Positions 572 to 61,443 of a stretch of 64,000 nt of DNA are shown here, piece by piece. The notes under the pieces are model-generated. The model did not search any database and had not been told where the DNA came from. It saw nothing but the letters and a program-made list of their open reading frames with translations. A program made the position numbers and the translations under genes. The stretch is from Tribonema minus (lineage: Eukaryota > Sar > Xanthophyceae > Tribonematales > Tribonemataceae), in NCBI GenBank assembly GCA_017506865.1, contig JAFCMP010000546.1:310001-374000 (forward strand). The letters run 5' to 3'. The stretch's first letter is position 1; every line of letters starts with the position of its first letter.

Positions 572-3500
572 GTTTGACGACTTTGTGGCACTCCTGGAAC
601 AGGTGAGCACTGCTGAGCACTGAGTCCCTAGCCCCCTAGACTAGGGTTGCACCAAAACGTATTGGGCCACACAAATATGGCGTATTTGGGGCATATTTGG
701 CGACCAGGAATACGTCTTGAACAAATCTAACATGATACCATGCTGCGCGGAGGGCGTATTTGTGGGGCATGTGGTAAGTCTGCTCAAATCCGAGCATACA
801 GTCTGCCACAAAAGGGGCACTTGAACTTCAATTCATGCAGTCCACCGCAAACGGGGCACTTGAACTAAACCATAAAAAAACTAGTTGCACCCCTTACCCT
901 TAACCCTACACCCCAGCGCCGCTTAGCTCAGGAATTCTCCGTGTCCCCCCCAGCCTCGCTGGCCCTGCTGCTTAAGCCAGGAGTTGGTTGTGGTACCGCA
1001 AGCTTACATGAAGGCTCTATACACAATCGCGTTCGAATCGTCAAAAAGAGTGTTGAGAGACGCAAACCACCTGTGACACAAGCCGGTGACAATCGGAATG
1101 CATGATTAAAAAGCATATGTACGTTCAAACCTGTCTTGACGTACTCGTGTACCGTCAGGCTGCCTCGTTGATGTTTTAAGCAAGCACCAGAAAGACATCA
1201 GCACGTTGCACCTCGTAAATGCCTGTCGCAAGGAAACGCACAGGTCAAGTACGTTGTCTCTGTGGCAGGCACAGTGCTTGCCGAAATGAAGCGCCAAGAC
1301 GGTTGCAACTCTTGCTCCGTGCTCTGCAGGCAGGCCCCGTGAGCCCAATAGATGGCCCCGACCCAAAAGTCATGGAGTTCCTGCGCATACTTGAGGAATA
1401 CCGGTGAGCTGTCAAATTTGAATATTGTTTTTGTCTACACAATAGTGTCATGAAGGCTGCAATATGTTGCGCGCTGCTTCATACGAATAGTTGTAGTTGT
1501 GGCGACCTTGCACATGCAATGGGCAACAAGGCATTGCTCTCAACTTGGGAGGGCGGGCGGTGGCAGCAGTGAATTCAAGTCGATGAGCCCATGTCCCAGA
1601 CAAATGCGTACATGCGCTGTGAAACAACTATCCACGAACTTGATGCATGGAAGAGCCGTTGCTGGCCTGACCCTAACCCTACCCCTAATTCCAACCCTAA
1701 CCCTAACTCTCACCTGACTCATACCCGATCCTGACGGCTGGCCACTTACTCAGGACCTAAATGCACACTCAGCATGGGCCGTAGGGTTAGGGTCGGGGTT
1801 AGATGTCATCGCAAGGACAAGTGCGGGCACGAGAGCACCTACGTGGAAGCAAAACCTGGCGTCGGAATCTAAACCTGAGCGCTAATTTCAGGTCAAACCT
1901 CAATCACCAACATTTGTCATGTTGGCTGATGATCCATTTCAGGCTTAAGTGTGAGCAGGAGGGCCTCTACAATGGAGGTGGGGCGCGCATTTGAGCCCTT
2001 CTAGGGCTAAAGCTATGCTTACGATGATGTTCATAGTCAGTAGATGCCTCTCAACGCTCATCACATGGCCGTTGCTCGATGCCGCCGCAGGCTCAAGTGT
2101 GAGCACGAGGGTAACTACCTGGAGGCGGCACGCGCATTTGAGACGTTCCAGGGCTAGGGCTACATTTACAGTGATGTTTCCGTTGAGTCAATGCCTCAAC
2201 GCTCAGCACACCGATGTTGCTCGATACCGCCGCAGGCTCAAGTGCGAGCACGAGGGCAACTACCTGGAGGCGGGGCGCGCGTTCAAGCAGCTCGACGTCC
2301 TGCGCAAGCAAGAGATACAGCGCCAGCAGAAGGCCATGCGCGCGCGCCAGCTGGGAGAGCGCCAGGACGTGCAGGTATGTATGTGAATATACACATACGA
2401 TACGCACGTACGTTAATTACTATACACATGCGGTATGCACATCCATAGGTACGGCACAGAAGGCCATGCGCGCGCGCCAGCTGAGCGACAGAACGTCAGG
2501 TAGTATACATACTCAGGTTTGTATACCGACTGGTGGTGTGTAGCGCAGGGTTGATATGAGGGTCAGGGCCAGTGTCAGCCGAACTCTGACATGAACACGC
2601 TCACAGTGCACTCCTGACGCCGTTGCCCTCCTTGTGCTCCCACCAAAACATATCATGAAGCTAATGAAGCAGTGTTGAACTGCAAGTTCGACGAGAGTGA
2701 CGGGTCCAACGAGAGTGACAAGCATGCAACTGCTGCGCATTGGCGCCGTGTGTGATGCTTTCTCCCATGCAGGAGGCGCACGACATGCAGTTTCAGGACT
2801 TCACCGCGGCGTGGGACAAGTACCTGGAGGAGTACGACAGGATGGCGCAAATGTACATACAACAGGTATACACATACTTTGAAGTACATATGTGCGCCGT
2901 TTGCTCGCGGGGACAGTGGAAATTGCAAAGCGGGTGCGGCCCCTAGGGGGGCAGTGGCGAATGTAGCCCATGCACATGATCAAGTGCAGACTTCTTTCTG
3001 GTCGTGCCGCCTCACACGGAGATGCATGCGTATGGCGCAGAATCCTCTGAGGAGGTGGGTAGCAGTGGTCGTACTTGCTGTCTCGAGCTTGCATACAATG
3101 TTGTTTGCGTTCGCAGCACCTGGAGGAGTACGGCAGGGTGGCGCAAAGCACATCCAGTAGGTACATACATACCATACCTGCGCCTTGAACTTGCACAGAA
3201 AGTGCGGATTGCAAGGTGGGCTAAACGGGATGGCACAAACGTACATGCAGCAAGTACATACAGGCGATGTATACATAAAGGCTGCAGTTAGTGGGCATTG
3301 AGACTCAAGCGACAGTCGGTCTTGCTGTTGATACTTTTACAACAGGGGGTAGGCGCTGGTAGCAACGTTGATGTTAGTCAGATTTGTACACCTGCAGCGA
3401 CTGGTTGGCAGAGCGGACACGGCACACATGAGCCGACATGCTGCCTGATTTGCACAGATTGAGTTGTAGGTGTCTGTCCCTCAAGTTGAAGCACTTTTTA

Positions 3501-6500
3501 TTATTAATTCTTGCTCAGGGCGCGAAAAAGCCCAAATGATGGTCTAACTTGATGCTGCTGTACGGAATCTGCATGTCGTGTGACTTGAAGTACACCTTGT
3601 ACGTATGGAGTTGCCACATCATGCTTGCATTACCAAGTGCTCCGTGCAAGTGGTGCCCTGTAGGGCACTAGAGGTGTGACATGTAAATTGCGGTTAGAGT
3701 GGGGATCAGGATGGCGGCTGGGACCTTTGTTCACAAGGGGCTAGTACTTGAGCCAGGTCATAAACAAGGGCGTAATCAGGGTTAAAAACGGCTTGAGATT
3801 CAACTGCAAGCTGGGGTCTGCATGTGAGTGAAGTTGCAAGAAGCGTCATATTCAACTCCACGCGTGATTGGTTTAGGCATAGGGCGCCGCATGGCTAGCG
3901 CTGATGGTCCAACCCTAATTCTGTACGGTGTAGCCTGCACCGCTCCGCCGCGACTCTGGCGCTAACTCTCGTCTGCTGCTCGTGTCAGATGACGGAGCGG
4001 CACGCAGTGGGCCTGCTGGAGCTACAACAGCGGTTACAGAAGTGAGTGCAGCGTGGAACGTACATGGACAGATCAAAACATCGTAGAGCTCTACATTTGA
4101 TTTGCTGTCGTCATCAGCTGCAGGCGTTCAGAGTACAAACAACGCGTGCAAAGCAGTTGCCTCAAGCGCGAAGCAGCGCAATGCTGACCGCGTCGCGGTG
4201 GCACAACTGCCCTGCTGACTGCGTGGCGGCAACGCACTGCGCGCGGCTGAAGTTGAAGTTGGGTACACAAATTGAAGCTGCGTATCATCGACATGTGCTG
4301 CTGCAGGTACAAGGCACCGCCCTGCGCGTGCGGCCTGCTGCGAACTGAGCAGCTGCCAAAGAAGAAGAAAAAACAGCAGGGTACTTGCAGAAAATTGGCT
4401 ATAGAGCATCGCAAGTAAGGAATTTAGCATATGCATGTACATGCACTGTGTAGTCACACGCTTTCATCCTAAACTCATCTGCACAGGGGTGCGCCTGAAA
4501 GCAGCCCAAGAGCTCGAGCGTGGACCCCAAGCACCAGTTGCAGTGCTCATCACGGCGCTCAGCTCTCACCTTCAAAACATTTGTTTACAGTAAGCCACAA
4601 GAGCCTCCACAGCGGCACAATAGCGCCCATCCGGCGCTTTCATGCATGCGCACTTGAAGGATAGGGTGACGTCAGAATTAGGGTTAGAGCTAGGGTTGTC
4701 GCACACTACGCGCGAGCTACTATCACTGCAGAATCATTGAGCGCTGGTGTCCGAGCTAAACATGAACATGTGCATGGCATAATGCGGAGAAGCACCAAAC
4801 ATACCAACCGCCAAACTGGTCAAGGAACACTGGCAGGGCACGAAGAAAAAGTGTCCGATTTTAAGCATGCGAAGTATACAAAGCCTACCAAGTCAAACAC
4901 AGAATCAGTGCCCCCAAACATCATGGTTATCATTGCTACCGTACATTATTGCACGTATATAATAACTTCATCAGACTTCAATGTGGGTGAATCCCTTCAA
5001 GCTCGGAACTGACCCTACAAGCCCTAGCTTTGCCCCCGACCCAACTCAACACCTAGACGGCTGCTGACTGACAGCTGAGACAGCACCAAACCGCCACTCA
5101 GGCTCAAGCCTTAATGCTGGTGATAACTGCAAATTGTCACTTGCAATCCGCACACCGTTGTCTTACATCACCTACATACGGGAGCTGCGAACCAAAAGCT
5201 TAGGTCATGCCGCGCGCCCCCTACACTTGCAACTGCAGAGAAGCGCAGGAGCGCCTCCCCAAGTGGTCCAAGGAGCTGCTGGACTGGCGGCGGAGGCAGC
5301 ATCTGCTGGCGCGGCAGCACAATTACGCAGAGGCGCAGAAGGTCAAAAAGGTACTTCTATGTACATGTGCAGCAGAGCACTGTTTTAGAAAAATGGGCGG
5401 TAATAGCGGTAATAGCGCACGTAGTATACATACCGGAGGCAGCACCTGCTGGCGTGGCAGCACAACTACGCAGAGGCGCAGAAGGTCAAAAAGGCACTAG
5501 TAGGTTGGTACGCAGAGGTGTACTGTGCCATCTGTTTGAGAGAAATACCATGCTTCAACATCAAGTATGGAAGTAATGCAGATGAACGCTAGTTGATGTT
5601 GAGTGTGGTGGTAGTGGCCCTTTGGAAAGAAGTAGTATATACAGGTGGTAGAGTATACTGCTGGCACGGCAGCACAAATATGCAGAGGCGCAGAAGGTCA
5701 AAAAGTTATGTTTGTATGCACGCAGAAGTGTACCTTTTTGGTTTTGGAAGGTAATAGCGTGCTCTCTCTCTGAGTATATATACTGTACTGGAGTCAGGGA
5801 GCCATGCACGAGTTGGCACAGACTGCGATCCGCCCTGTTCATGTATGTACGGCCAGGATGACTTGAGTTGTGCACTCGCTGCCTTGGCCCCGCTGCAGAT
5901 CGCCGACCAGCTGGAGGAGAGCGAGAGGGAGGCCATGCACGAGTCGCACGCGCTGTACGTCGGCCGCAAAGAGGCGGGCTTCCGCGCGCAGCAGCAGGCG
6001 GAGCTGCAGGCTCTGCTCATGGTGGGGACCGCTTCCAGCCATGTGATTACACAACTGTGTTGCGTCTGTCCCCCGTAACTGTTGCGCCCAGCGCATCGAC
6101 GCGCGGCGGCGCGAGCACCTCAATCAGCATACTATACGAGCGCAGAGAGGCCACATGGGAGTGTCGCCGCTTGAACTGCTGATTACTCCCTTGCTCAAGC
6201 CATTCCTTCATCCCCGTGTTGACATACCTGTGCTGCATCTACTTCCTTGCTCAAGCCATTCCGAAATCCCTGCCCTGACGTAACTGTGCTGCGTATGTCC
6301 CTCGTGACTGCTGCGCCCAGCGCATCGACGCGCGGCGGCGCGAGCACCTTAAGCAGCGCGCGCTCGACAGCAAGCGCCTCCTGCAGCGCAACCGCAACGT
6401 GCAGGCGGTGCTCGAGGCGAAGCAGTCCTCAGAGGGGCAGCGCCTGACGGCAGAGATTCGGAAGACAGTTCTGGAGGGGACGAGCGTCACTGCCGTGGCA

Positions 6501-7009
6501 GCAGCGGCGGCAGCGGCGGCGCCGGCGCATGGTGCTGCCGCCACGGATAGGAAGGGGCGGCGGTTGAAGAAGGTGAGCACTGCTGTAGTAGACTGAGCGC
6601 TGTGGCAGTGTGATGGATGCACTCCGCGGCAGGCTGAGAGCTGCGACAGTGTGAGCACTGCAGCCGCGTGTCACGCTTTTTGCAGCAGTATGAGCACTGC
6701 AGCAGTGTGTGATGTGTTCAGCGGCACGCTGAGCACTGCGACAGAGTGAACGCCGCAATGGGTTGCGCACCGCAGCAGTCTTTGCAGCTGCAGCAGTGGG
6801 AATACTGTAGTATCTGAGCGCTGCGACGGCATTAGCGCTGCGGGTGGTGCACTGGTGTGATCACCGCCAACCGCCGTCTGACCATCAAAATCGTGTGCAT
6901 GCTGTTTGCGCAGGGGGGCACGCCGCGCGCGTCCGCCGACACGCTGAGCACTGGCGTCAACGACCGCACGTTCGTAACGACTCAAAGGGGGCCCGAAGTT
7001 AGGGCATGA
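572..7009 (+). CDS. Conserved coiled-coil protein, multi-exon, 5' partial
   Basis: Nine exons: 572-602, 1330-1403, 2236-2374, 2773-2865, 3989-4041, 5239-5350, 5899-6021, 6321-6572 and 6914-7009 (TGA). They sum to 323 visible residues and the phase closes at every junction. Order of sequence: FDDFVALLEQ, then DPKVMEFLRILEEYR, then a charged helical stretch (EGNYLEAGRAFKQLDVLRKQ), a Trp-rich helix (AAWDKYLEEYDRMAQ), KWSKELLDWRRRQHLLARQ, and a Lys/Arg-rich helix ending in an alanine run. The protein is almost entirely predicted helix, rich in E, Q, R and K, with no membrane segment or enzyme motif. The pattern resembles a conserved protist and algal family that I cannot name with certainty. A cytoskeletal or ciliary role would be a guess. 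The first codon is split, so the true start lies further upstream. Several exon edges are echoed in the introns. Confidence 0.82.
642..895 (+). mobile_element. Short interspersed repeat, hAT-like MITE family, copy 1
   Basis: About 250 bp in the first visible intron of the coiled-coil gene. It begins TAGGGTTGCACC and ends near TGCACCCCTT, which is an imperfect inverted repeat of the start. The body closely matches the reverse complement of the element at 15970-16159, including stretches around GGCGTATTTGGGG and GTCTGCTCAAATCCGAG. It carries an extra duplicated segment near its right end. No clear target duplication was found for this copy, so its borders are approximate. Confidence 0.7.
1806..2160 (+). 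repeat. Acceptor-side exon echoes of exon 2236-2374
   Basis: Two clear imperfect copies (about 1941-2010 and 2088-2160) and a weaker one (about 1806-1850) of the acceptor plus the first 60-70 nt of exon 2236-2374. Spacing is about 140-150 bp. Each clear copy keeps the AG and the codons for LKCE, but the reading frame then decays. They look like pseudo-exons rather than used exons, since the third copy alone continues in frame into the rest of the gene. Confidence 0.8.
2458..2515 (+). repeat. Donor-side exon echo of exon 2236-2374
   Basis: The stretch encoding KAMRARQL and the bases up to the donor recur once, about 130 bp downstream of the real exon end (2374). The copy has a short internal deletion and ends in a GTAG-type donor-like sequence. 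Confidence 0.75.
3119..3265 (+). repeat. Donor-side exon echoes of exon 2773-2865
   Basis: Two decayed copies (about 3119-3160 and 3225-3265) of the exon end that encodes YLEEYDRMAQMYIQQ, each followed by the same GTACATAC-like start of the intron. Confidence 0.75.
3495..3545 (-). repeat. Dispersed repeat, A/T-rich 3' tail, copy
   Basis: In reverse orientation it reads CATTTGGGCTTTTTCGCGCC, then CTGAGCAAGAATTAATAA. The same tail occurs near 46750-46795, 51840-51885, 57465-57531 and 62050-62104. It lies in an intron of the coiled-coil gene. Confidence 0.75.
5432..5706 (+). repeat. Donor-side exon echoes of exon 5239-5350
   Basis: Two copies (about 5432-5497 and 5655-5706) of the last 50-65 nt of the exon, the part encoding RRQHLLARQHNYAEAQKVKK. 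They are 85-95% identical by eye. Spacing from the real exon end is about 150 and 355 bp. Confidence 0.85.
6074..6135 (+). repeat. Acceptor-side exon echo of exon 6321-6572
   Basis: The polypyrimidine stretch, the acceptor (CGCCCAG) and the first 40 nt of exon 6321-6572, encoding RIDARRREHL, recur 246 bp upstream. The copy diverges after about 45 exonic bases. Confidence 0.85.
6573..6913 (+). repeat. Intron built of short GAGCACTGC-type repeats
   Basis: The last intron of the coiled-coil gene consists largely of diverged repeats of a GTGAGCACTGC/GCAGTGTG motif, spaced about 35-50 bp. The motif resembles both the real donor at 6573 and codons of the last exon (ACGCTGAGCACTGG), so this may be a heavily eroded echo array. 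Confidence 0.6.
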
Positions 7010-8512: not shown

Positions 8513-11511
8513 ATGTCTGATGTCGGTGGCAAGAGGGCCTTGCACATCACCACCACTCCCAGCAATACTGCATCGGACAGCACTTGCACAGTGCGCGTGG
8601 TCAATGGCGAGGTAAGGATCCATGATTACGTTGCTATTGAGCCCATTAGCGGCTTTGGTGTGCAGTTGGCGCAGACTGATGCTCAATCACACAGCTTGGC
8701 AGGTTTTTCCAGAAAGCATCACCTGGTTTGTCCAATCAGATACCCAAGAAGCAGGCTGATCTTCTGAGCGCTGGTGTTGCGCTGCTGCAGGTGTGCCAGC
8801 TGGACGTGAATGCGGAGGCAGAGGGCATGTTCGAGGCATTGCTGCGCATCATGGCATCGGAGGTGGCTTTCGAGGTGCCTACTGCTTGCAAAGAAAAATT
8901 GCGAGATCTTTTACGAGCCGGCCATGCCGGAGCACTTCGGCAATTCTGATGCAGTGGAGCACTGATTTGAGAGTGCACAGCGCATAGCAGAGCATATGTT
9001 GTTGAGGGTAATGACATCAGACACTGCCCTCTGCATGTTCATGCCGGCAGAGGTCCTGCTTCCTAGCTGTGGTCACTCTGGGCGTGCCGCTGAGCTAAAA
9101 CCTCGCACACACTGAAGAGGGTAGCCTGGCACACAGTCTCCCCCTCCTGGTGTTTCATATTATGGCTGTTCTTGCCTTAGCGCCAACCTGAAAGCTTGTG
9201 CACAGCTAGCACAGTTGCCTCCCCCGGTCTCACGTGGCATGTCACCACGTGGCAGTGATGTGGGTCTAGCATGGTACGCCTGCGAGTCGTTTTTGTGTAG
9301 GCAAACTGCTTGCTTAGCTGATGGATCTGAAATCCAATCACGATTCGTCTCTTGAAAAGACGCTCGCTATTACGGGAACTTCTTGTGACGCTGGGCCCTC
9401 ACAAGTGCGCGCGAACAGAACACTGTATGGCCATTTTGACGCACATGAACACGCCCTTCAGTCGCGCGACGCGGCACCCCTCATGCAACCCCACAGCCGA
9501 CACGCACACACACACCCCGCAGTCCTGCCCGCATCAGGCGCCAGCGCCTCTGTGCCAGCTCGTCATCCATCTGGCCGTCTGCTGCGACGCGTACCTCACT
9601 GCCACGCATTGTCCGTGCCCCGCCGCCGCCGCAGGTGCACCGCGCGCTGCACACGGGGGAGATGTCGCTGGAAGACCTGTACGCGGAAAAGCGCAGCGGG
9701 GACGCCCTAGGGCTAGGGCTGGGGGAGCAGAGGGCGGGGCTGGATGTGTTCGGGCGCGCGCCGCCGCGGGAGCCCTCTGGGGGCGTCACCTGCCCCACTT
9801 GCGGTAGGCAGGTGGGCGTGCTGAGGTGGGTGCGCATGCGCGCCGGAACTGCAGGTGTACATGCATAGAGTAGCAGGGTAGACTTGATGCACCCACAACA
9901 GCGCCGCTGCACAAGCCCTCTGGGGCACCGCCTGCGCCACTTGCAATAGGCAGGTGCACGTGCTGAGGTACGAAGGCACGCGTGCCGGAAGCGCGAGACT
10001 CGATCAGCACTTTTCGCAAGTGAGCTTCATGCAATCACAGAGCTATCATCACGTTGCCAAAGGTGCAGGAGCGGGAAAACAGAGGTGTATTCATATTGTG
10101 GTTGGAATAGCGTGCACCAGGTGGTAGGGTGTGGTCACGTCTTAGTGTTAAGTTAGGGCTAGCTAACCCTAACCCTAACCCTATACGGTGCCATCGACCG
10201 AATCGCCTGCCAGCGGCTCAACGAGCATTTGGGGAGGCATGACCCGCTTTTCTTAACACTCAATACGTGCGCATGCGAATGTATCCAGGTCAGGAAGTGC
10301 ACATGGCTATGCAGCATGGTCTGCCGTCAAATACGCCACGCACTATAATTATATGTATACCCGTAACGGCTACTCTGGTATGCATATTCCTCGTAGTATA
10401 CCTAGCTGTGGTGTGATCGGCACTGCGGTGATGTCGGCAGCAGCACTTACAAGCGCATGGCAGCGTGCAGCTTTTGAAACATGAGCTACGGTACATGCGT
10501 ATGCCCGCCGCTGAAGTACCTGAGATACACGAGTGTCGTAGCAGCAGTCGGCGCAGAGCCGCGCCCGCTTACAGTTATCCTCAAAGTGCAACCAAAACTT
10601 CATGTTGAACTTTTCCTGAAACTTCATGTTGAACTTTCACTTGGCGCATGGCACTCGCGTGCGAATTCATCAGCGCTGGCGCATGTGCGCATTCGAATCA
10701 AAGCTTGTCAAGGGTTAGGTTAGGGTTAGGGTTAGGGTTGTCAAGCCTGCCAGCGGAGTTTGCGACGGCCGGCTGCGCCGGCGCCAGTGCTGACATTTAC
10801 GTCTCACTTTCTGAAGGCTGTTGTGTGGATGTATTTCGAGTAGGGTTGCCAAAACGGTATTATTGAACAAATACGGTCAACGGTATTTGTAGCGTAAACC
10901 ATGCTGATCTTGACCACAGCTTCGGGTGCCCTGAGGTTTATTTTCGGGCTTACTGTGCCGGACGCAAAAATGGTATCGAAGTTCTCCAAAACCTCAATAG
11001 GCAGGAGTTTACGGTCAAATTACGGTACGATTTACGGAGTATATTTGTAAATAAAGGTACGGTTTTGGCGACCCTGATTTTGAGTTATTGAAGTAGCGAT
11101 CACTTCATGTCACTGGGTCACATGACTGCTTGGTCGCCGCACGGCGGCGCAGCAACAAGCGAGGTCTGCCCGCAGGGTGCTGCCACCTTCTAACGTAGCG
11201 TAAGCATCGATTGCTAGACGGAAGTCACATCACCTCAACATCATCACGCACCCTGTCTCGATGTTACATAAAGTTGAAGTTGACTCAGCCCATGGTCACA
11301 GCCGTGTCTGTGGCAAAGGCATGTGCATGCCGGCGCTGCATTCCAATGCAACGCAGGTGCCCGCCGCTTGCCCCCGCGTGCACAATCCTGACCCGTGCTT
11401 CGCGCGCGAATATACCTACATGCGCCCCGCAGGTTCGCGCCACATCTGGACAAGTGCATGAAGGGGTCTGTTAGAACAACGAGCAGGCCCACCGGGGGTG
11501 GCGACACCTGA
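8513..11511 (+). CDS. SGF11-like SAGA deubiquitinase-module zinc-finger protein
   Basis: Exons 8513-8611 (tentative first exon with ATG), 8791-8874, 9635-9825 and 11433-11511 (TGA), giving 150 residues with all phases closing. Exon 2 encodes a helix ending MASEVAFE, joined to VHRALHTGEMSLEDLY in exon 3. The zinc finger is split by the last intron: CPTCGRQVGVL, then RFAPHLDKCM. The C-x2-C ... H-x3-C arrangement plus RFAPHL(D/E)KCM is the signature of SGF11/ATXN7L3-type fingers. In yeast and animals this subunit helps the SAGA deubiquitinase remove ubiquitin from histone H2B in the nucleus. The short N-terminal helix that precedes the finger also fits the family. The first exon is the weakest part; the exact C-terminus after KCM is also uncertain. 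Confidence 0.72.
9917..9966 (+). repeat. Donor-side exon echo of exon 9635-9825
   Basis: The end of the exon, including the first zinc-finger cysteine pair region and the GTGCTGAG donor context, recurs once about 140 bp downstream. A TAG replaces a codon in the copy, so it is not a usable exon. Confidence 0.8.
10841..11076. mobile_element. hAT-like MITE with 8-bp target duplication
   Basis: A 236-bp element with terminal inverted repeats: TAGGGTTGCCAAAACGGTA at the left and the imperfect complement TACGGTTTTGGCGACCCTG at the right. It is flanked by ATTTCGAG (10833-10840) and ATTTTGAG (11077-11084), an 8-bp target duplication with one mismatch. It has no coding capacity. Its TIR start and 8-bp duplication match hAT-type non-autonomous elements. 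It lies in the last intron of the SGF11-like gene. Confidence 0.8.
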
Positions 11512-31448: not shown

Positions 31449-31480
<32 letters not shown>

Positions 31481-43735: not shown

Positions 43736-43843
43736 CGCGTCACAGCGGCCAGAACGCTCGCGTGCCGCACAGCACCGCGGCCTCACCACAGCCGCTGCAG
43801 CATGGAGAGCGCGCTTGACTGAGCAGCGCTGCCACGCCGGCCG

Positions 43844-49800: not shown

Positions 49801-52800
49801 CAAAACAATCTTTAAGTTGGTTGCTACATTATTGTTTTTTACTCTCGCAAAGAGCACGCGCTCGGCCTCGGCTTCGGGCCAGGCATACAGCTGCAGCGAC
49901 CTGAGGGGTAGTACATTAGCTGGTATCGTGGGCACGTCTATCGTCATTGAGGCCTTGCAAGGCGCGCGTGCTCGAGTGCGGCACCGGCAGGCAGCAGTAC
50001 TTGCACCGCTTCTTGCTCGGCACAGGCCCGCAAGCCCAGATGCGCAGCTGCGGCAAGGCGCTGAGTAGCTGGCAGGTCTGCTTGCAATCACGATACTAGC
50101 GTCGCGCGGGGCGCACGCACGCAAGTGCGGCAGCCCATTCTACAAATAAATTGCAACTTTTTCAATACTTCAAAGTACATAAATCAAGTCAACACGTTTC
50201 ACAACAACATCATGATTGATCAAAATGATGGTGGTGATCACATAGATTCAGAAACTCAGACCGCAGAAGCTGATGGGCTCGTTGGTAATTATGGTAGCGG
50301 AGACGACAGGGCGAGGGTGAACGGCGCTCACCATATGTCTTGGTGCACGCCTCCAGAAACTCCACAAGCCCCACGTGCGGCGACATGAAGCTTGTGTCGA
50401 TCCTGCAGAGGGGGTTAGGCGTAGGGGGCATGGTGACGCAGTGTCGGTGGTGTTGATCTGCAACTGCGGGAGGTCGAGCGACTTTATGTACACTTCTTGT
50501 TGAAGTACCGCACAACAACAACAACCAACAACGGGTGAACGGAAGTTCGTGGTGATCCTGCGTGGGGGGGGGCATAGGGGGCATCGCAACTCAGCCTCGG
50601 TGGCGGGAGCCTGATGGAAAGGCTGCGTCGCCCCTGTGCACACACGATTTCTCCAGATGCACTCGCGATGATGCGACTGCAGGGGGGTCGGGCGACTGAG
50701 TGCATACTGTGTGCATACTGCTTCTTGAAGTATCGCACATCCACAGCGACCCTTGGCAGCAGCAAGTAAGGCAAAGGGGGGAACACTGGGGGTTTAGTGC
50801 AATGTTCGCACAGGCATTGTGTAAATTCCCCACTGGTATGACCACAAGTTATGCATGTTTCAGTAGTGTGTGCACATCACCCGTGCCATTGTCCGCTTCT
50901 GGCCCTAGACCTAGCTGCTGAGGCCGCCGTATTGCCATTGTGTTCGACTGCAACCGTCTGGTCAATCGCCCCAGTTATCGTTCTTTGCGGGAGGCAAGAT
51001 CATCACGCAGTTCTTGCCGCACTGCGGCCGTCTTGTCTCCCCCCCCCCCTCGACCTTCCATTGCAAAAGCCAACACCCTTCACCGAATTCTTGCCCTGAA
51101 ATCAACACTACTCACTCCTTGTCGGACCCGATCGCCCTCCAAAAGTCAACACCGTTGCCCTTTGTAGTTCTTGCCCGCGAAACCAAAACTACTCACTTCT
51201 TGTCGGAGCCGATCGCCCCCTGCACGGCCCAGCCGACGTGCAGCCCAAATCCCATGCGCGCCTTGTAGTCTGGCATGCGTTGACACACGCGCGACATGGC
51301 GCTCACGGAGAACTGACAGATGTAGTCCTGCAGCATCGATCAGCACGGTGGAGGCGCGGGGCGGTTGAGGAAGTAGGGTTAGGTTAGGGTTAGGCACTCA
51401 CGTTCTTGAAGCGGTTCAAGTTATTCAAGTACATGCTGCAATGACATGGCGCTCACGGAGAACTGACAGCTGTAGTCCTGCAGCATCGATCAGCGTGGTT
51501 GAGGCGCGGGGTGGTTGAGGAAGTACACGCTCACGTCCTTGAAGTGGTTGTTGCAGTACAAGCTGGTAATATGGCGCTCACGGAGAACTGACAGATGTAG
51601 TCCCGAGCATCAATCAGCACGGTGCAGGCGCAGGGTAGTTGAGAAAGATACACGCACGTGAAGTAGTAATTTGAAGTACATCTGCAAGGGGGCGCAGATG
51701 GACGAGGACTTCGAGGGGGGGGAGATGCCATGCGGCGATGTCTTTCAGAAGTGTTCGGCAATGCACACTAAGATACTTTCAAGGTGTTCACAACGACACG
51801 TGTGGGTCCTGGCTGCAAGTCCATGGACATCCACCATCTGGGCTTTTTCGCACCCTGAGCAAGAAGTAATAAAAAGTACATGCTGAAACCAGGACGAGCC
51901 TGAGGGTAAGGGCAAGGGTTAGGACTGGGAGTACAGGCGTATGGAATAGAGTGTGAAACTTTTGCGGAGAGATTAGGGAGGCAGTGGCGTAGAGCCATCA
52001 CTTGATGGTTGTTGTCCGACACAGGCCGGCAACTGTCACACCAGGCACGTAACTCAAGCAGAGCCCTAGCTGGTGAGCAGCACAGAAATTATGCACATGC
52101 CAGATTCAGGATGGTGGAGACACTATCAAGTACCTGTCGGCCAGTCTTATACTTCTACTCCCCTTACTCTAGCCCTAATTACAGCTGCCCCTGTGCACGC
52201 TCTACTGGCGCAGCGTCCGCCACTGGGGCCGCCAAGCGCACCGACAGCAACGGTCTCGCAGCGGCGACGGCGAGCAGTGCAACGCGATGCGCACAAGCGC
52301 GGGCAGCGACGCCAACATCAAGTCAGGGTCGTCACCTGCTGCCGCTCCATCTCCACGATGACGCGCAGAAACGACAGCAGCGCGTGGTCCGCCGCCGTGG
52401 CGACGCTCTCTGCGCCCCTGCCGCTGCCGCCGCCGCCGCCACCGCCGCCGCTGGAACTGGCACCAGCGCTGAGACTGGCGCTGCTGCTGCCACTGCTGCC
52501 ACCAGCGCCGCCAGTGCCGCCGGCGCCGCCACCGCCTCTGCCGGCGCCGCCGCTGCTGTTGCTGCCGCCGATGCTGCCGCCGCTGCCGCCGCCGTTGCGG
52601 CCGCGGTCGCCGCAGATGGTGGCGGGCCACGTGAGCAGGAAGGCGTCACCCGCGCTGCCGCCGGCGCTGCCGCCGTAGCGGCGCGCGACGGCGTGCAGGA
52701 GGCGCGCGACGCGGTTGACGAAGGGCATGACCTCCTCGCGCAGGCACTCGGTCGTGTCGGTGAAGGCGCGGATGTCGCAGAAGCCGAAGACGGCGCGCGC

Positions 52801-55800
52801 CATCGTCCCGGACGTCAGCAGGTTGAGCCTGCGCGGCGCGGCGCGGCGGCAGCGGTATGTCAGGGGGCATGTACAGATTTGACCTGAGCTTTGAGGCAGC
52901 AGCAGTAAGGGGGGTGCCCATTGCTCAGCAAACACTGATACTCAAAACTATAGGCACTGCTGATGCGCAGAGCTTCAACTCACCAGTTGTCCCCAGAGCT
53001 CACGGGTAGCTGGCATCCATTGCTCCCCAAACACTGAAACCCTCAAAACTACAGGCACTGCTGATGCGCGGAGCTTAAACTCACCGGTTGTTGGACGACT
53101 TGCGCAGGTTGCGCGCGATGATGTCGGCGTCGGCGTCGCCAAAGTCCTCACGTGCATCTACTGCTCAACAAAGACTCTTTGACTATGGCTATTTATGTTA
53201 CTTCGAAGCATTTGGAACACTCTGACTGGACGACTGCTGGGGATACTCTCAAAACTGTAGGCACTGCTGATGCGCGGAGCTTAAACTCACCGATTGTTGG
53301 ACGACTCGCGCAGGTTGCGCGCGATGATGTCGGCGCCAGCGTCGCCAAAGCCCACGCGCAGGAGGCATGCATCCACTGCTCAAGGAAAACCATTTGATTA
53401 CGAACTCTCCGTTACTTTATCACTCTGACCGGACAACTGCTGCGGGATTCCTACATTCAACATAGGCACCTGAGCCACTAACCCCTACACGCAGCTGATA
53501 CTCATTGCTCAGCAAACTTTGCTAGTGTAAGCACAGGAGAACGCTGCCGTACGGCAAAACTCACCGGTTTTGCATCCATTGCTCAGCGAACACTTATCTT
53601 CTCAAAACTATACAAATTACTGATGAGCGGCGCTGCAACTCGCCGATTATTGGACGACTCGCGAAGGTTGCGCGCGATAATGTCGGCGCCGGCATCACCG
53701 CACCCCGCACGCAGCAGGCATCTGTTGCTCAGCAAAACTCACAGGTTGTTGGATGACTCGCGCAGGTTGCGCGCGATGATGTCGGCGCCGGCGTCGCCAC
53801 GCAGCAGGTATGCTACTGCTTGGATCACTCTGACCGGACAACTGCTGGGGGGATACTCTCAAAACTGTAGGCACTGCTGATGCGCGGAGCTCAAACTCAC
53901 CGGTTGTTGGACGACTCGCGCAGGTTGCGCGCGATGATGTCGGCGCTTGCGTCGCCGAAGCCGACGCGCAGCAGGCATCTGTCGCTCAGCAAAACTCACC
54001 GGTTATTGCATCCATTGCTCAGCAAACACTGGTCATCTCAAAACTGTAGGAATTACCGATGCGCGGAGCTGCAACTCACCGATTGTTGAACGACTCGCGC
54101 AGGTTCCACACTCACCGATTATTGGACGACTCGCGCAGGTTGCGCGCGATGATGTCTGCGCCGGCATCGCCGAAGCCGACGCGCAGCAGCCCCGCCATGG
54201 CGTCCATGGCCTTGAGCAGCGCGGTCGTCTCCAGGTCCTCCGTGTCGTCGTGCTTGCTCAGCACGGCGGCGGTGGTCAGCAGCTGCGCCTGCGAGCGCTC
54301 AGATAGTGACAGGAGTATCAATTGAATTACTGCATCAGAGGTAGAAATCGACATCTGGTCGCTTTTTGATTTCGGTTTCGTCCTCCGTGTCGTCGTGGTC
54401 GCTCAGCACGGCGGCGGTGGCCAGCAGCTGTGCCTGCCTCGATCAGATGACGAAAAGAGTGTCGCAATGCGCATCGAGTTGAGTAGTGAGGGTGTTCGAT
54501 GTCTGATGTGCCCGGTCCTCCCCGTGGTGCTTGCTCAGGACGGCGGCGGTGGTCAGCAGCTGTGCCTGCGGCGTACAGATTGGTGAACGGAGCGTCACAA
54601 TTTAGAGCAGAATCAAAATTAGGGTATGCTCAACGTCTGGTGCCCGAGTCGGTTTCAGTAGGTGTCCGCCTGCTCCGCGTCGTTGTGATTGCTAGGTGCG
54701 GCGGCGGTGGTCAGCCGCTGCGCCTGCAAGTGCTCAGGCATCGAGTTGAGCGTCACCCTCCGCATTACTGTCCGCCTTGAATCCAGAGAATGGGGTAAGA
54801 GCCAGTTCCAATTGTGTTGTCGGTAGGTATTTGTTTTTTGGAAGGTATTGGTAGCTCCATGCTGGCATGCTTGCTCAGCACGGCGGCGGTGTTGAGCAGC
54901 TGCAACTGCAGTGCTCAGAACACATAGACTGAATAACCAATTAACAGGGGCCAGCGTTTTGAGTCTGGCGCCATTTCAAGGCAGGCATGTTGCCCGCAGG
55001 CGTGGTTGCGTAAGCGAGGACTCTGGAGCGTCACACCTGGAGCGTCACCGTTCGAAAGTCTGCTTGAACTTTGGAACCATCCATGGCATGCATCATTTTG
55101 TGCAGCGTCGGTGCATGCTTCATGGTCATCCAGGTGCTGCCCATGTGACTGCAGGGATTGCAGCACTTTAGTATCGTGCCCGAATGCAATGACATGCCTG
55201 CACCTGCGTGCATAATGCCAGTGACGCGCATCGCTGAGCACTGCAGCTCTTTGAGCTCTGTACGGCTCATTGAGCCTGGCGTCAGCGACGCTTGTGCGGC
55301 GCAAGGGCAGCAGTTCGTTTAAAAGCTTATCATGACCTAATCCTCACCCCGACCCTGACCCTAACCCTAAACCTCAACCTACCCCAACCTGACGCCTAAC
55401 CCTAGTAGAATTGAAGTGGCAAATTGAAGTTTGCCCAGCGCTCCGTGCACGTGTCCAGGATCTATTGTGCGCATGTTGGCTGAGCACCGCAGCTCAATGC
55501 GCAGGCTAGTTCAAATGCTGGTGCGGCTGGAATGCAAACTTGAGGTTGCACAGATAATTACAATATTTCAAATTGTAGACACTTTAAAAAAAGCAACAGC
55601 ACTCAAATTATGATAAGCTATGGACTTTTGGCTTGTTGATGTAAAAAAGTAAAAAATCAAAATGTTTGAGTATTACGTCTTCGTTTGACTTGGACTTTCA
55701 GCTGGCGTACCTTCGCGTCCAGGGGGTTGGCGGCAACGCACTGCACCATCTGGTGGACCTGCTCGAGGGGGGTCAGCACGAGCCTCTTGACGTCGAGGCC

Positions 55801-58800
55801 GAAAATGTGAACGCCCGTAATCAGCAGCCCGAAAACCACCTGCGGAAAGGCGCGCAGCGGCGTGTGTGACGGCTGGCAGAGTCAGCACGCACCGCTGTTG
55901 GCCTTCAAATAGATACTTCAAGCGTATGCCGTTTATTGAAAGCGCTCTTGGAAAAGCTCGGACGCGGGCGGTGCCGCACACCGACAAATTGAAGTTTGCA
56001 ACGGTATGTATTGTGTTGAGGTACGTTGACGCCCGCAAACACCACCTGCAGAGGGGCGCAAAGCACGTCTGACAGACGGCAGAGTCAGCACGCACCGCTG
56101 TTGGCATTCAAAAAGATACTTTGCACTACATGCCTGCAAGTAGATACTTCAAGTGTATACCGCCAGTTGAGCAGAGCCATGTCTTTTGTAGATACTTTGG
56201 AGTACATGCCGCCATTGGAGCAGAGCCATGTCTTTGAATAGCTCAGACGCCGGCGGTGCCGCACACCAATAAATTGAAGCTGTTTTACGTGCAAACACCA
56301 CCTGCAATGGGGCGCAAAGCACGTCTGACGGTTGGCAGAGTTAGCACATACCGCTGCTGGCCTTGAAATACATACATGCCGTCGTTTGAGCAGCGCCACG
56401 CTTTCCAACGGCTGCCAATCGAGCACCATAGTATACCGAGCGACTCCTGTGCAAAATCACTGGTACGTGGAAATTTGCCTTGCTGCACCACTGCGGCCAC
56501 GCTGACCCTACCTGAACCCTAGCCATGAACTGAGCCCTGACACGCGAGATGGCCCTTCTCCCCTGTATGTCATGCATGGCGTCCCGACCACCAGCGCTTC
56601 AGTGTGCGCCGAGGTGCTGCCGATACATGGCATCTGAGTACCTTTCGACAGGTACTTACATGTGTTGCATCCACAACATGTGCCTGGATGTGTTGTGGCT
56701 ACAACAGGTACCTGGATGCGTTGTATCGGCAGCACCTGGGCACACTCAAGTATTAGTGGTGCCAGTTTTGGCGGATGGTGGGAACCAGACGACAAATAGC
56801 TACTCAATGAGCAGTGTTGTGTTGTCAGTGCACTGCATGTAGGTACCCTGCAACAGGCATCTAGATGCGTTGTATTGGACAACAGGTACCTGGATGCGTT
56901 GTATCGGCAACAGGTTACCTGGTACCGTACTACCTGGGTGCATTGTATCGACAGCAGGGCCACAGGTACCTAGATGCATCGCAATGACAACACCTGAGCG
57001 CACAGTATTATATGAGTGGTGCCTGTTTTGGTGAATGGTGGGAAAGCTAAGCAATTACGTAGCTGCTCAATGAGCAGCGACGCCATGTACTTTATTCACT
57101 TCCGCTGGAGGGGCAGAAACCCTATTCTGCACATTTTTCATACGTTTGTTGGTGTGTTATTGTCGTATTCAACTACTGATAAAAGGCATTGGCAGCTATC
57201 CGCATCTTGTCACCTAGCGCTCTACGATCTGATAAATTGGTTCCATACAAAACGTATTGATTCCAATGAGCTCGTGCACGCCTTCCCCGCTGTGCACTCC
57301 CCTTTGCTGCTGCTGCGATGGCACACTTGCTGGTGAGGGAGATGCCATATGGCAATGTGGATTAGAAGTGATCGGCGATGCGCATTGAGACACTTTCAAG
57401 GTGTTAACAAAGACACATGTAGATTCTGATTGCAAGCTGGACATCCACAATACTTTTGAGCCCTGAGTGACAATTTTAATAAACAGTACACTTACTCGCC
57501 CTGAGCAAGAACTAATAAAAAGTACACTTACCGCTGCTAGGACGAGCTGGTTCCTTGCCGTGTGCTGCACCGCATCCTTGACAGACACCATGACGACTGC
57601 GCCGGCGATGCTGAGAGCGTCCGGCAGCTGCGAGTCGTTGTGAATCGAGTCATTGCGAGTCGTTGAGGCAGGCATGTGGGCAGAATTGGGCAGCAGGCAG
57701 CAGTGTCAGGAGGGTGGGAAGGACTACTTACGAGCTCCCTTTCCTGAAATACAACACCATACAGCACCCCCGTACCGTACATAGAGTCCTGAAATACAAA
57801 CCATTCAGCGTGTCCATACTATGTATACATACAGTGCCCCACGCCGTGTACGTACCCGTTCCACACGCATGCCACCGTGCACCGGTATTGACACGCAGTC
57901 TAATCATCCCTGTAGGTGGCTTTTTCATGTATTGAAATGCTGGCGTTCAAGCCGTCCCCTGGCTCTGGTGACACATTAGCGCCAACTGTAAAGACGGAAG
58001 TTCGTGGCCTACGCATGAGATCCTCATATGCTTCTCAATTCGAGCTTACACAAGCGCCAACAACCAAAAACAACAATCTCATCCTGGGCATGTTGCGTTG
58101 TCCTCTCAATCTGAGCACCGACGCCTCGGTGGTGATGCATCACGTGACACCATGAGATTCATCATGCGCTGCACTATTTTTCAACTTCATTCACAAGTTT
58201 AACATACATACGTACCCGTATCATAACGAGCTCCTCCGCGCGCAGCGACGCGAGCACGCGGTCGGCGGCGCGGAAGCGCTCCGCGCCCCCCAGGGACAGG
58301 TACAAGAGGCCCTGAGTGGTGGCTATGTAGTATGAGATGGCGCCGTCTAGTGTGGCAGCGCTGATGTCTTCGCCTGCTTGCTGAGCAACTGCCATAGCCT
58401 GTAACAGATGACAGGTTGACGCAGGGTCATGAACAATGGGGCAGGGTCAGGTGTGGTCGCAGACTGCTGCGCCATTGGCTGTTGTATGACTGCAAGGGCG
58501 GACACTTCGTGTGACGTCAAGTAAGCATGCAGAAGTTAGGCGTTGACGGTGGCGCAGGTTGCAGAGCAGCGGCTATGGCCTGTAGCAGGCGCCAGGTCAT
58601 GATAGGTCAAGGCAGGGGGTGGATGTGGTTGCATTTGTTGCCTTACCACACCTCGCGTATGTGCAAGACACTGCCGTATGGGTCCTTGTCTGCAGATTGA
58701 GCAGCCATGGTCTGCAGCAAACAATGCACATCCGAAGTATGTGGATCAAGGTGATGTTAGGTGTCACAGTGGTCACATTCTGCTGTGCCATTCCGCCAAT

Positions 58801-61443
58801 GTATTGCTGCATCAGTGGTCGCGGAGGGTGACGGTGATTAGCATGCAACAAAACAAGAGGCAGTGGAAGTGGTGCCGCCTCAGAAGGCTGAGCAGCTGCC
58901 ATGGCCTGCAACAGACAGCAATTGGGGTGAGGGTCACGTGTACCTGCGTGCGTTCAACAAGTTGCCTGACCATCGCCAAAGTCCTTGTGCACGCGCTGTT
59001 GTGCGCGTACCAAGACGCATGAGCGTTGCACTTGTGTGCGCGGCTGTTCAGCGTGCACATGTGCGTTCGTGTCTACTTTTACATGGCACTCCTGTAATGC
59101 GTGCACATGTGCGTTGGTCCCTACTTTTCACATGGCAATCCTGCAATACCACCTATTACTTGGATTGTGGTGACCCCACCCCCATTTGTGGGCACGCACA
59201 ACATTGGCCTTTGCTGCCTTTGCGGCCTTTTGTAAATAAGAATAATGTGCTTCCTCTCTGAAGCATGCATCTGACAGTGCCTGATGTGAAAATTTGCACC
59301 CTTCACTGAACATTCCAAGTACGTCGAAGTATCGTGTTGCTGCCAATCTGGTGGACTTGTCTGCAACACATGTGTGCCAACAATGGCGCTGCTGCTGCGC
59401 TAAGATTTTTGCAAGACGACAGCTATACTCACTATCGACCACAGCGCCATTTGGGTAGGCATGCATGATTTAGGTGTGGAGTTGAGGTTGACGTTCCTGC
59501 AAGACGATGGCGCTGCTGTCGCGCTCTGAATTTCGCAAGTACTACAGCCATGCTCACTACCGACTGCAGCGCTAATTTGAGTAGGTATGCATGATTTTGT
59601 TACGCAGTTGAGGTTGACATTCCTGCAGGACGCGTGCGCCGACGATGGCGCTGCTGTCGCGCTCGGAGTACACCATCGCGGCAGCCCCGATGAGCAGCAC
59701 CACGACTCCGATCACGACGCGCTGCAGTGTCAGGTCCAGCAGGCTGCGACGCGGGAAAGGGGGCGGGAGGGGGTTGTGAACTGGCTTATTAAGGTATACA
59801 TTGGGATGATGATGTACGCCAAGCGCGCAATTGCTGATGTCAATGTAAGCCTGGACATGCAGTGAGCAGGTAGACTGATGTTTACGTCGCATACACCGAC
59901 CACCACAACCAAAATACAACACACTGCTGCTCCATCCTCAGGTTCAAAGCTTCATTGCAGTGTGCTGCCAGCAGTCACCAGTGAGATGGCTGCGATCACG
60001 ATTGTAACGGCGCTAAAGCAATGGCCAGAGTTGGGCACAAGCGGTGTTCAAAGCATCATACCTGCCGCCTAGCAGCACACCTATCCTAGTCTCAGAGAAA
60101 CACACTTGCGGTAGTACATGGTCAATGGGTGTGCGGCACTTCACTATTAAGTGTTGTCAGTTTCGGACAGAGAGATGAAGCAGGGCTGCCAGTACATGTC
60201 AAACGAGTGTCCAGGTGTGCAAAGATAGTGCACTGCATCACCAAGCGCCTAGCCTTAACTGTGCCCTGATAAACGAAAGTAGGGTTTTTACCCGCAACAA
60301 GAGCATGCAACCTCAGCTGCAGAATGTTACCTCGACCAGACCTCAGTGAACAGTCATGCCGCATAACGCAGTTGCTAACTCTGGGTCCTTGGGTTAAGCG
60401 CCAACCAGTACTGCCTCTCGCAGCACACCACACTGTGCAGCTGAGTTCAGGGTACTACACATTTCTAGGGTTGATGTGGGGCTTGGGTCAGGCTCAAGTA
60501 ATGCGAGTACTCACTTGCGACCCACAGTGCTTTTGGGGATCCCCTCCCGCGCGGCTGGTTTAGCCTGCTTCAGCAGGGTTACAACACTCAGCATATTATC
60601 AGCAATTGCACTGGACCATTGTGCTCCTTTTACTCAGTGTTGTCAGTATGGTACGATCAAGCTTTGTCAAAGTCTTCATCGATGAAGTGATTGTGAATGC
60701 GCACTCAGACATTTTGTTGTCATAAGGTTTGTGTTGATGATGGCAGCACCCTTGACACCAATCCTCTGGGCTTTTCGCGTGCTGTAGCCAAGGATCATTA
60801 AAGTATTTCAATACTCTTGAGTACCAGTCGACACTGTGCTGTGCAGGCGCCGAATATGCCTGGTGGACAGTCTGTGCTGCACGCATGAAGCAGACACTGG
60901 CCCTTCATGGCACCTGGACATCAAGAAGCATTGTGAAGCCTAAATTTGCAAGTCTTTCAAGCGTGGATTTCCTACTTCAAGTTGTTGGCGCCGTATTCAG
61001 TGCTGCAGCATGCAGCACCAGGGGACGCATGGCGACCACTTCCTGACCTGCTGAGGTCTGGTGCGTGACATCACTCATATCAATGCCGTACCTGCATACC
61101 CTTGTCAAAAAACGCAAGCTACTCAGAAAGGCCACTAGAGATACAGGCGAACACTGGCAGTCTGGTGCACAACCGCAGCGACAATGCACGCAATCAATAC
61201 GACAGTGAGCAGCTTATACACCCCAGTACACGGAGTACATCATGATGATCGTGTGGTGAACAGGCGTCTTGAGGGGCGACGTTGCTGGTAGAAGTTCACT
61301 CTGTACCTGCCAGTGCGGTGACGCGCCCGTGCGGACAGATCCCGTCGGTGCAATGGTGGGGGACCTGCTGCGCGCGCCGTCCTTTCTCGCACGGTAGTAC
61401 CGCCTGGAGGTGTCCGTCGCGACGATGCGGCGTCCGCGATCAT
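43844..61443 (-). CDS. Membrane-bound class III nucleotide cyclase
   Basis: Exons: 61307-61443 (ATG), 59623-59743, 58216-58398, 57532-57627, 55711-55839, 54116-54288, 52336-52828, 51197-51327, 50332-50402, 49099-49169, 48276-48572, 47130-47219, 45931-46167, 44634-44690 and 43844-44092 (TGA), about 844 residues. A first membrane helix (RVVIGVVVLLIGAAAMVY), a loop of about 100 residues and a second helix (LVLAAVVFGLLITGVHIFGL) lead into a HAMP-like linker. The catalytic domain has FGFCDIRAFTDTTE and GDAFLLTW, each with a metal-binding Asp, then RMGFGLHVGWAVQGAIGS and KIDTSFMSPHV. A Gly/Ser insert of about 60 residues follows GDAFLLTW. It should make cAMP or cGMP at a membrane. Uncertain: the exon 2 donor (GA, see findings), a possible micro-exon near 51404-51437, and exon 44634-44690. 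Confidence 0.88.
44958..45775 (-). repeat. Donor-side exon echoes of cyclase exon 45931-46167
   Basis: Five copies, starting near 45726, 45541, 45360, 45176 and 44958, of the last 65-70 nt of the exon, which encodes LGPPPQRSFVFSLPPPE plus the donor. Spacing is about 180-220 bp. Each copy is followed by TTAGGG-like and GGGCTAGGG-like sequence. Confidence 0.92.
46285..46545 (-). repeat. Acceptor-side exon echoes of cyclase exon 45931-46167
   Basis: Two copies (about 46295-46345 and 46485-46545) of the acceptor and first 40 nt (VGEVAPFDLDVQR). Spacing is about 180-190 bp. A GC-rich stretch with a C-run (46207-46236) lies between the first copy and the real exon. Confidence 0.9.
46748..46795 (+). 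repeat. Dispersed repeat, A/T-rich tail, copy
   Basis: Shorter and diverged copy of the same tail as at 62050-62104 (GGGCTTTTTTGCGCTTTCAG, then CAAGAG). Confidence 0.55.
46812..47060 (-). repeat. Donor-side exon echoes of cyclase exon 47130-47219
   Basis: Two copies (about 46820-46858 and 47018-47055) of the exon end (VTHHLRNSV) with donor-like GTATGTATG or GTACTGTATG. Confidence 0.82.
47975..48220 (-). repeat. Donor-side exon echoes of cyclase exon 48276-48572
   Basis: Copies at about 48163-48220 and 47980-48035 of the exon end (VGQYLRLRRASSMN). The nearer one keeps the donor. Confidence 0.85.
51105..51140 (-). repeat. Donor-side exon echo of cyclase exon 51197-51327
   Basis: Copy of the AIGSDKK end with its donor, about 80 bp past the real one. 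Confidence 0.75.
51443..51680 (-). repeat. Echo units of cyclase exon 51197-51327 and a neighbouring micro-exon
   Basis: Two units (about 51443-51555 and 51568-51680) repeat the first 30-35 nt of the exon (DYICQFSVSA), the acceptor, the intron, and the 30-nt stretch that resembles a micro-exon (51404-51437). Spacing is about 125 bp. Confidence 0.8.
51720..51890 (+). repeat. Dispersed repeat, A/T-rich 3' tail, copy
   Basis: Shares GATACTTTCAAGGTGTTCAC, CCATCTGGGCTTTTTCGC and a tail ending AATAAAAAGTAC with the copies near 57395-57531 and 62000-62104. Confidence 0.75.
52975..54110 (-). repeat. Donor-side exon echoes of cyclase exon 54116-54288
   Basis: About seven copies of the exon end (DAGADIIARNLRESSNN plus donor): near 54076-54110, 53895-53975, 53744-53815, 53635-53725, 53288-53370, 53082-53152 and a remnant near 52978. 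Several share the same start of the intron, including CTCCGCGCATCAGCAGTGCC. This is the largest echo array in the window. Confidence 0.92.
54375..54910 (-). repeat. Acceptor-side exon echoes of cyclase exon 54116-54288
   Basis: Four copies (about 54380-54440, 54525-54570, 54680-54730 and 54865-54910) of the acceptor and first 40-60 nt (AQLLTTAAVLSKHDDTE). Spacing is about 145-185 bp. With the downstream array, both edges of the same exon are echoed. Confidence 0.9.
56027..56312 (-). repeat. Acceptor-side exon echoes of cyclase exon 55711-55839
   Basis: Copies near 56030-56065 and 56283-56312 of the acceptor and first 12-15 nt of the exon. The surrounding 200 bp is also duplicated, with GAGCAGAGCCATGTCTTT-like and TACTTCAAGTGTAT blocks. 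Confidence 0.75.
56630..57060. repeat. Minisatellite-like array plus a direct repeat
   Basis: Copies of a motif close to CAACAGGTACCTGGATGCGT, spaced about 30-70 bp, in the cyclase intron. A separate direct repeat begins GTTTTGGCGGATGGTGGGAA near 56763 and recurs near 57024. Confidence 0.75.
57205..57531. repeat. Dispersed repeats in the intron after cyclase exon 57532-57627
   Basis: Contains a copy related to 25420-25590 (57205-57260) and a tail copy (57395-57531). The tail's last bases abut the cyclase donor at 57531, so the intron begins with the reverse complement of the tail. Confidence 0.7.
58545..58917 (-). repeat. Acceptor-side exon echoes of cyclase exon 58216-58398
   Basis: Three copies (near 58560-58590, 58688-58715 and 58888-58917) of the acceptor and first 20-25 nt (AMAVAQQ). 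They are short but each keeps CAG before GCCATGGC-like sequence. Confidence 0.78.
59385..59540 (-). repeat. Donor-side exon echoes of cyclase exon 59623-59743
   Basis: Two copies (near 59388-59425 and 59500-59540) of the exon end around RDSSAIV, followed by the same CAGGAACGTCAACCTCAAC-like start of intron. Spacing is about 115-135 bp. Confidence 0.8.

Follow-up and report, generated by a model that had tools for sequence, protein, structure and literature searches.

Introduction

Introner elements are repeats tied to introns that copy themselves into many genes, and tandem copies undergoing concerted evolution by gene conversion stay more alike than their age implies. In humans, small tandem duplications are reported to be the most frequent class of short insertion (<100 bp) and are ascribed to break repair in which CST and polymerase alpha-primase fill in 3'-overhangs (PMC8355091). 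New introns have also been described to arise when an exonic piece with an AGGT-like site undergoes tandem genomic duplication (PMC3443670, PMC2891723). Here a 64-kb stretch of DNA, referred to as the window, was analyzed in which the edges of exons recur within the adjoining introns. The analysis of these exon-edge copies, termed echoes below, confirmed that their layout is real and that they are decaying tandem copies.

Results

Genes and exons in the window

The window is eukaryotic, with GT-AG introns, a GC content of 51–68% per 2-kb step and coding exons that are GC-strong at third positions. Exons were predicted using a small HMM and the map was edited by judgment, which resulted in 35 exons, 11 on the forward strand (572–9803) and 24 on the reverse strand. 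Out of 8 HMM exons on the forward strand one was removed (11688–11734), and four exons were inserted by eye (572–602, 1331–1404, 3990–4041 and 5239–5350). On the reverse strand 12 of 36 HMM exons were removed ahead of counting, six of which (at 14304, 26519, 27937, 44963, 48172 and 53901) were echoes that the HMM had miscalled as exons. As the HMM chained all exons of the reverse strand, gene borders on that strand are provisional.

At least four gene stretches bear echoes, one on the forward strand at 2–10 kb and three on the reverse strand at 14.5 kb, 23.5–34 kb and 43–60 kb, in agreement with the four or more affected genes claimed in an earlier, sequence-only reading of this DNA. The 23.5–34 kb stretch encodes EF-hand, PH and kinase domains. 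Five kinase exons joined without their echoes aligned unbroken to CaM kinase 1 over query residues 6–267, two joined echo-bearing exons carried a nearly complete PH domain (profile positions 3–104 of 105) and further exons of the stretch encode EF-hands, as judged by domain homology. A Pfam search of read-through stretches gave kinase matches in one out of four. The gene at 14–18 kb was provisionally labelled JmjC/cupin on the basis of a match of a patched query that fell below the cutoff. Scans of viral contigs and bacterial genomes turned up no relative; one 38% kinase match in a bacterial bin, from a second genome scan, was set aside. The donor of one kinase exon, at 24390–24400, may be GC (AACAAG/GCGAGT) rather than the GT chosen by the HMM; several echo donors are GC as well.

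Repeats of other kinds are also present. A young LTR-type element at 38079–40036 has 280-bp direct repeats that are 100% identical (TGACGGA...TCCGTCA) at an offset of 1678 bp, is bordered by a 5-bp target duplication (GGCCA) and touches the upstream end of an open frame on the reverse strand (37346–38086). A short repeat whose core resembles CTGAGCAAGAA.TAATAAAAAGTAC is dispersed over four places, in both orientations (3498–3584, 51831–51899, 57492–57547 and 62021–62106). Two inverted dispersed pairs, 643–826/15974–16158 (86%, 185 bp) and 21829–22300/24953–25411 (79%, 480 bp), are perhaps remnants of mobile elements. Interstitial TTAGGG/CCCTAA tracts lie outside the mapped exons at 1664–1710, 23439–23481 and 32747–32781.

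Placement of exon-edge copies

The first and last 70 nt of each of the 35 exons were searched against the exon's flanks over up to 2 kb or up to the next exon. Acceptor edges yielded 18 upstream matches at 9 exons, and donor edges 38 downstream matches at 17 exons. With the same queries no wrong-side match was found for either the acceptor or the donor edges of the 35 exons, and reversed flanks gave 3 matches at 2 exons; these two controls rule out a chance origin of the echoes. Included in the 56 matches are 4 weak ones (scores 21–25), all from the donor edges of two exons of low complexity, 31656–31975 and 19360–20465. The central claim of the sequence-only reading, that exon starts recur upstream and exon ends downstream, was thus upheld.

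From 1 to 6 echoes were found per exon side, slightly fewer at the upper end than the 1–7 that had been proposed. The proposed distance of about 130–210 bp was close to that measured, as the spacing of successive edge-touching copies had a median of 168 bp and quartiles of 146.5–199.5 bp over 51 spacings obtained using longer queries. These were within 102–229 bp in 43 cases, one was 36 bp and seven were 291–981 bp; the longer queries, used for spacing and gradient alike, also admit weak matches at 0.61–0.75 identity, and some far array members are weak. Whole exons were never found to be copied, as had been claimed, the largest share of an exon in one flank copy at ≥74% identity being 0.62. 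Internal windows of the nine exons longer than 240 nt matched in 8 of 39 cases, all in two low-complexity exons, in which reversed flanks gave 6 matches (7 over all nine exons). Local repeats were predominantly direct, with an offset below 1 kb in 112 of 140 direct HSPs vs 4 of 22 inverted HSPs. An assembly artefact is unlikely because echo identities are graded between 68% and 97% (one 20-nt match is at 100%).

The duplicated units contain adjoining intron, as the sequence-only reading held. Homology of the intron flank was detected in 32 of the 49 units that reach the junction (p<0.05, 200 shuffles), was undetectable in the remaining 17 and was present in 13 of 16 units with an exon identity of ≥0.9. 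Several arrays run head-to-tail over the entire unit of exon edge and intron. Erosion was observed to grow away from the exon, again as claimed: the nearest copy exceeded the mean of the farther copies in 10 out of 13 arrays (Wilcoxon p 0.005), and echo identity decreased with distance (pooled Spearman −0.47, p 0.002).

Individual arrays

On the forward strand, the HMM exon 2236–2374 has echoes on both sides. Three acceptor echoes upstream of it (1818–1850, 1943–1996 and 2091–2138) form a full-unit tandem array, and the edge search, by which the arrays that follow were also located, placed a donor echo at 2452–2499. Exon 2773–2865 is followed by a donor echo at 3115–3156, exon 5239–5350 by two at 5434–5493 and 5652–5705 in which the donors are altered to GC and TT, and exon 9635–9803 by one at 9901–9944, while an acceptor echo at 6092–6128 precedes exon 6321–6572.

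On the reverse strand, three of the kinase exons bear echoes. Exon 24395–24617 has acceptor echoes at 24695–24762 and 24866–24917 and donor echoes at 24280–24346 and 23920–23989, and the kinase reads through without them; exon 26086–26214 has a donor-side echo at 25965–26009; and exon 26676–26921 has an acceptor echo at 27045–27114 and a donor echo at 26519–26574. The two exons of the PH domain are flanked by four donor-side echoes extending to 27915 (exon 28576–28730) and by acceptor echoes at 29646–29700, 29785–29839 and 29921–29989 (exon 29371–29541). Out of the EF-hand exons, 31656–31975 has an acceptor echo at 32098–32159, its donor-side matches being of low complexity and discounted, and 33953–34168 has a donor echo at 33787–33820.

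In the 43–60 kb stretch of the same strand, exon 43848–44113 is followed by donor echoes at 43668–43737, 43472–43550, 43279–43346 and 43111–43178. Exon 45931–46167 has acceptor echoes at 46270–46334 and 46476–46537 and five donor echoes from 45786 to 44963; the five donor echoes start 64–77 nt into the exon, after a partly common stretch. Donor echoes of exon 48276–48600 are located at 48173–48221 and 47983–48054, acceptor echoes of exon 51197–51312 at 51443–51462 and near 51587, and donor-side echoes of exon 59632–59743 at 59503–59529 and 59372–59401. The richest array is that of exon 54116–54288, with four acceptor echoes (54380–54903) and six donor echoes (54105 to 53085), the latter including multi-unit block duplications such as 53212–53368/53820–53978 (92%). 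By eye, one of these echoes, 53644–53713, carries exon-private synonymous changes that are wholly or partly absent from nearer echoes. It has intron bases in common with the exon's flank as well, which suggests a later duplication rather than conversion as its source.

Exon 14460–14727 on the reverse strand has a donor echo at 14304–14388 (region 14301–14727) that is identical to the exon at 67 of 70 positions. A weak whole-unit alignment of the intron parts (55/84, p 0.005) indicates that this echo retains some intron homology. Its global intron identity of 0.43 is nevertheless at the level of noise, random pairs averaging 0.48. The echoes of 14460 and 5350 combine exon parts at 96% and 95% identity with intron parts that are globally identical at 0.43 and 0.55, at local homology p values of 0.005 and 0.045, respectively. 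For the echoes of exons 2236 and 24617 the exon parts are at 90% and 86% and the intron parts both at 0.71.

Comparison with neutral simulations

A purely neutral account holds that random tandem duplications occur everywhere and that purifying selection acts on exons and splicing, so that edges are visible since the exon copy does not drift. It was simulated as random tandem duplication with a splicing filter, employing three parameter sets and 120 runs in which all parameters were set by hand, with no formal fit. The three sets matched the number of edges with echoes (means of 25.7–27.0 vs 26 observed) and approached the number of echoes (43–50 vs 56). Divergence between echoes was compatible with neutrality as well (difference 0.214, n = 19, reached in 9–29% of runs), and the intron identity near the junction for echoes of all identities, 0.44, was reached by 5–22.5% of neutral runs.

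Other properties of the arrays were not reproduced. Intron-only local repeats occurred at a ratio of 0.96 to exon-touching ones, vs neutral means of 3.9–4.0, and no ratio this low arose in the 120 runs; exons missed by the map would push the true ratio below 0.96. Relative to intron-only repeats, exon edges are roughly fourfold over-represented. Lower duplication rates fit the intron-only count yet yielded only 5–17 edges. Wrong-side matches arose in every neutral run (means of about 9), as opposed to none in the real data. Between an exon and its nearest echo, exon parts were more alike than the linked intron flanks of the same units. The correlation of exon-part and intron-part identity over nearest echoes (rho −0.07, n = 22) was lower than in any of the 120 runs (neutral means 0.45–0.49), and at an exon identity of ≥0.9 the intron identity was 0.57, vs 0.73–0.76 under neutrality. 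On a second measure, again at an exon identity of ≥0.9, the observed intron identity was 0.45; one parameter set attained it in 2.6% of its runs and the other two never did. On balance we consider the purely neutral account unlikely.

Effect of conversion, edge bias and slow decay

Additional processes were evaluated by extending the model. Strong exon-to-echo conversion at two settings brought every measure nearer to the observed values, with 28 and 30 edges bearing 42 and 45 echoes, ratios of 1.89 and 1.72, intron identities of 0.62 and 0.60 and mean rho values of 0.16 and 0.14. The observed rho was reached in 4/24 and 3/24 runs and an intron identity as low as that observed in 2/24 and 3/24, with too many intron-only repeats (72 and 71 vs 55 observed) and too few echoes (56 observed). 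Four weaker conversion settings produced just 17–27 echoes; in one of these the mean rho was 0.31 and 10% of 40 runs were at or below the observed value. By comparison, neutral, edge-biased and slow-decay runs of this series never attained either the observed rho or the observed intron identity. Slower decay of exon-derived sequence, a stand-in for constraint or a low mutation rate, resulted in ratios of 1.67–2.32, with rho reached in 0/24 runs and intron identity in 0 of 23–24. Duplication combined with exon-to-copy conversion is the closest of the models, without a full fit.

The fourfold enrichment of edges could also result from a mutational process aimed at splice junctions, through paused polymerase, R-loops or positioned nucleosomes, with the exonic breakpoint usually 30–90 nt inside the exon. 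A simulated fourfold edge bias did repair the ratio (0.87), and 43 of the 51 spacings fall within the narrow range given above. Using a 90-nt query, the exon part of nearest echoes was found to span 32–90 nt and reached ≥88 nt in 2 of 22 cases, vs 39–43% in neutral simulations. This narrow range may in part arise because duplications that would leave an intron too short to be spliced are eliminated, and with 250-nt queries the exon part extended to 124–250 nt in 10 of 51 copies, though at 0.61–0.75 identity. Edge bias alone moreover shifted neither rho nor intron identity from its neutral value, the observed ones being reached in 0/24 runs. When conversion and edge bias were combined, 56 echoes and a ratio of 0.68 resulted, yet the observed rho was reached in 1/24 and the intron identity in 0/24 runs. 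A junction-directed process as the whole explanation therefore appears doubtful.

Coding and splicing potential of the echoes

Changes private to the echoes were spread evenly over codon positions 1, 2 and 3 (76/65/82), as opposed to exon-private changes (1/3/8), and 32 out of 38 gaps in echoes were not multiples of three. Taken together, all differences between exons and echoes were third-position heavy (145/136/215), and amino-acid changes numbered 84, vs 113 predicted by random placement; both would be accounted for by synonymous drift in the exon itself. In 12 arrays the changes private to the nearest echo (14/9/10) were not below the third-position changes of the exon (5). Translated echoes and mutually exclusive or alternative exons are disfavoured by the frame-shifting gaps and the even codon-position changes, and the echoes are probably unused as coding exons. 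Splice dinucleotides were kept rather well, with AG in 16/18 echoes (15/15 only if a matching first base was required), GT in 20/27 and GT or GC in 24/27, and echoes may for this reason see occasional use as splice sites.

A reading in which selection maintains the echoes as alternative exons, splice decoys or recursive splice sites could draw on these dinucleotides, on the six echoes taken for exons by the HMM and on the presence of a stop in just 1 of 29 ungapped echoes. The stop count does not differ significantly from expectation, however (1 vs 2.7, p 0.19), the codon-position and gap patterns are those of non-coding sequence and the slow-decay simulations, which serve as a proxy for constraint, missed rho and intron identity. 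Selection for function is consequently held to be highly improbable.

Discussion

The echoes were very probably produced by tandem duplication across exon-intron junctions. Repeated short tandem duplication had been suggested on first reading, and the head-to-tail units with intron, the whole-unit arrays and the freshest copy lying usually beside the exon all support it. Short tandem duplications, mostly of about 100–230 bp, would be frequent in this genome, and one that crosses an exon-intron junction would persist only where splicing stays on the inner junction. Upon duplication of an intron end and exon start, splicing from the inner acceptor alone would give the old mRNA and the outer copy would become intron, with donors as the mirror case. 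Since splicing would skip the outer copy, echoes would be laid out only outward from the exon. Duplications within exons or of whole exons would change the protein and be lost. Later duplications would place fresh copies beside the exon and shift older ones outward, and the stranded echoes would evolve as non-coding DNA.

An extra process seems to act at the edges, as these are roughly fourfold enriched and the exon parts are too well kept. The constrained exon probably serves as a template from which the exon part of the echoes is repeatedly overwritten, by a double template switch or by gene conversion over a short range, as their intron parts decay. We consider this full statement, junction-spanning duplication plus exon-templated conversion, likely, with moderate confidence. 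Anchoring at exon borders, another of the causes first suggested, would in part be an effect of filtering, given that neutral runs reproduce the number of edges with echoes; the enrichment and over-preservation of the edges suggest that something further acts there. Gene conversion from spliced RNA, a third suggestion, fared worse. Intronic splice-site bases, namely the acceptor AG and donor positions +1 to +5, are retained alongside the exon part (AG in 16/18, GT or GC in 24/27), which makes a spliced-RNA template less likely than the genomic exon.

At the DNA level, the duplications may arise when staggered breaks are filled in before end-joining, as outlined in PMC8355091, or through slippage or template switching on the lagging strand, where a double template switch would yield conversion as well. 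The scale of about 100–230 bp would be compatible with the length of a nucleosome or an Okazaki fragment, as far as one window can suggest. A bolder reading casts exons as master copies, with template switches of nucleosome or Okazaki size at the junctions both creating and overwriting copies, so that introns grow as strata of edge copies. This is a tentative idea that is rather improbable as it stands; if true, introns would be a visible record of junction-focused mutation.

In each array the exon, as a fixed internal reference, allows a series of local duplications to be oriented and roughly dated. A single genome could in this way show how the sizes of short tandem duplications are distributed, which direction they take and at what rate they undergo conversion, all of which is hard to observe elsewhere. 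The arrays would also reveal how introns lengthen and how splicing copes with numerous decoy sites. A genuine preference for edges would indicate that mutation is linked to splice junctions.

Comparison with known systems

Titles and abstract openings of the literature, with few subscription journals covered, contained no arrays of exon-edge copies among the matches listed. Like introners, the echoes are repeated sequence linked to introns. No credible echo unit was found in another gene of the 64-kb window among 40 HSPs at least 3 kb apart, the only distant HSPs overlapping echo matches being the discounted low-complexity ones at 31401–31578 and 19115–19179. Introners are unfit as an explanation for this reason, and a transposon or introner origin is ruled out within the window.

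Like the tandem genomic duplications that give rise to introns (PMC3443670, PMC2891723), the echoes would be duplications rescued by splicing. The duplicated segment is however not wholly exonic with a proto-splice site, as in those reports; echo units straddle existing junctions and no intron is made. As in concerted evolution, copies retain more similarity than their age implies, with the differences that a constrained exon is among the members and that mainly the exon-derived part is preserved.

The likeness to small tandem duplications lies in local head-to-tail copies that arise without a transposon, with no exon required. Echoes share their direct orientation and close spacing, with exon edge and intron repeated over the offset in 32/49 units. 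Compared to the insertions described in PMC8355091, echo units are mostly 100–230 bp, recurrent at the same junctions and seemingly refreshed. Among the matches listed, exon-edge arrays are without a described counterpart, and the known kinds of process beside which they stand are small tandem duplication, intron gain by tandem genomic duplication and concerted evolution.
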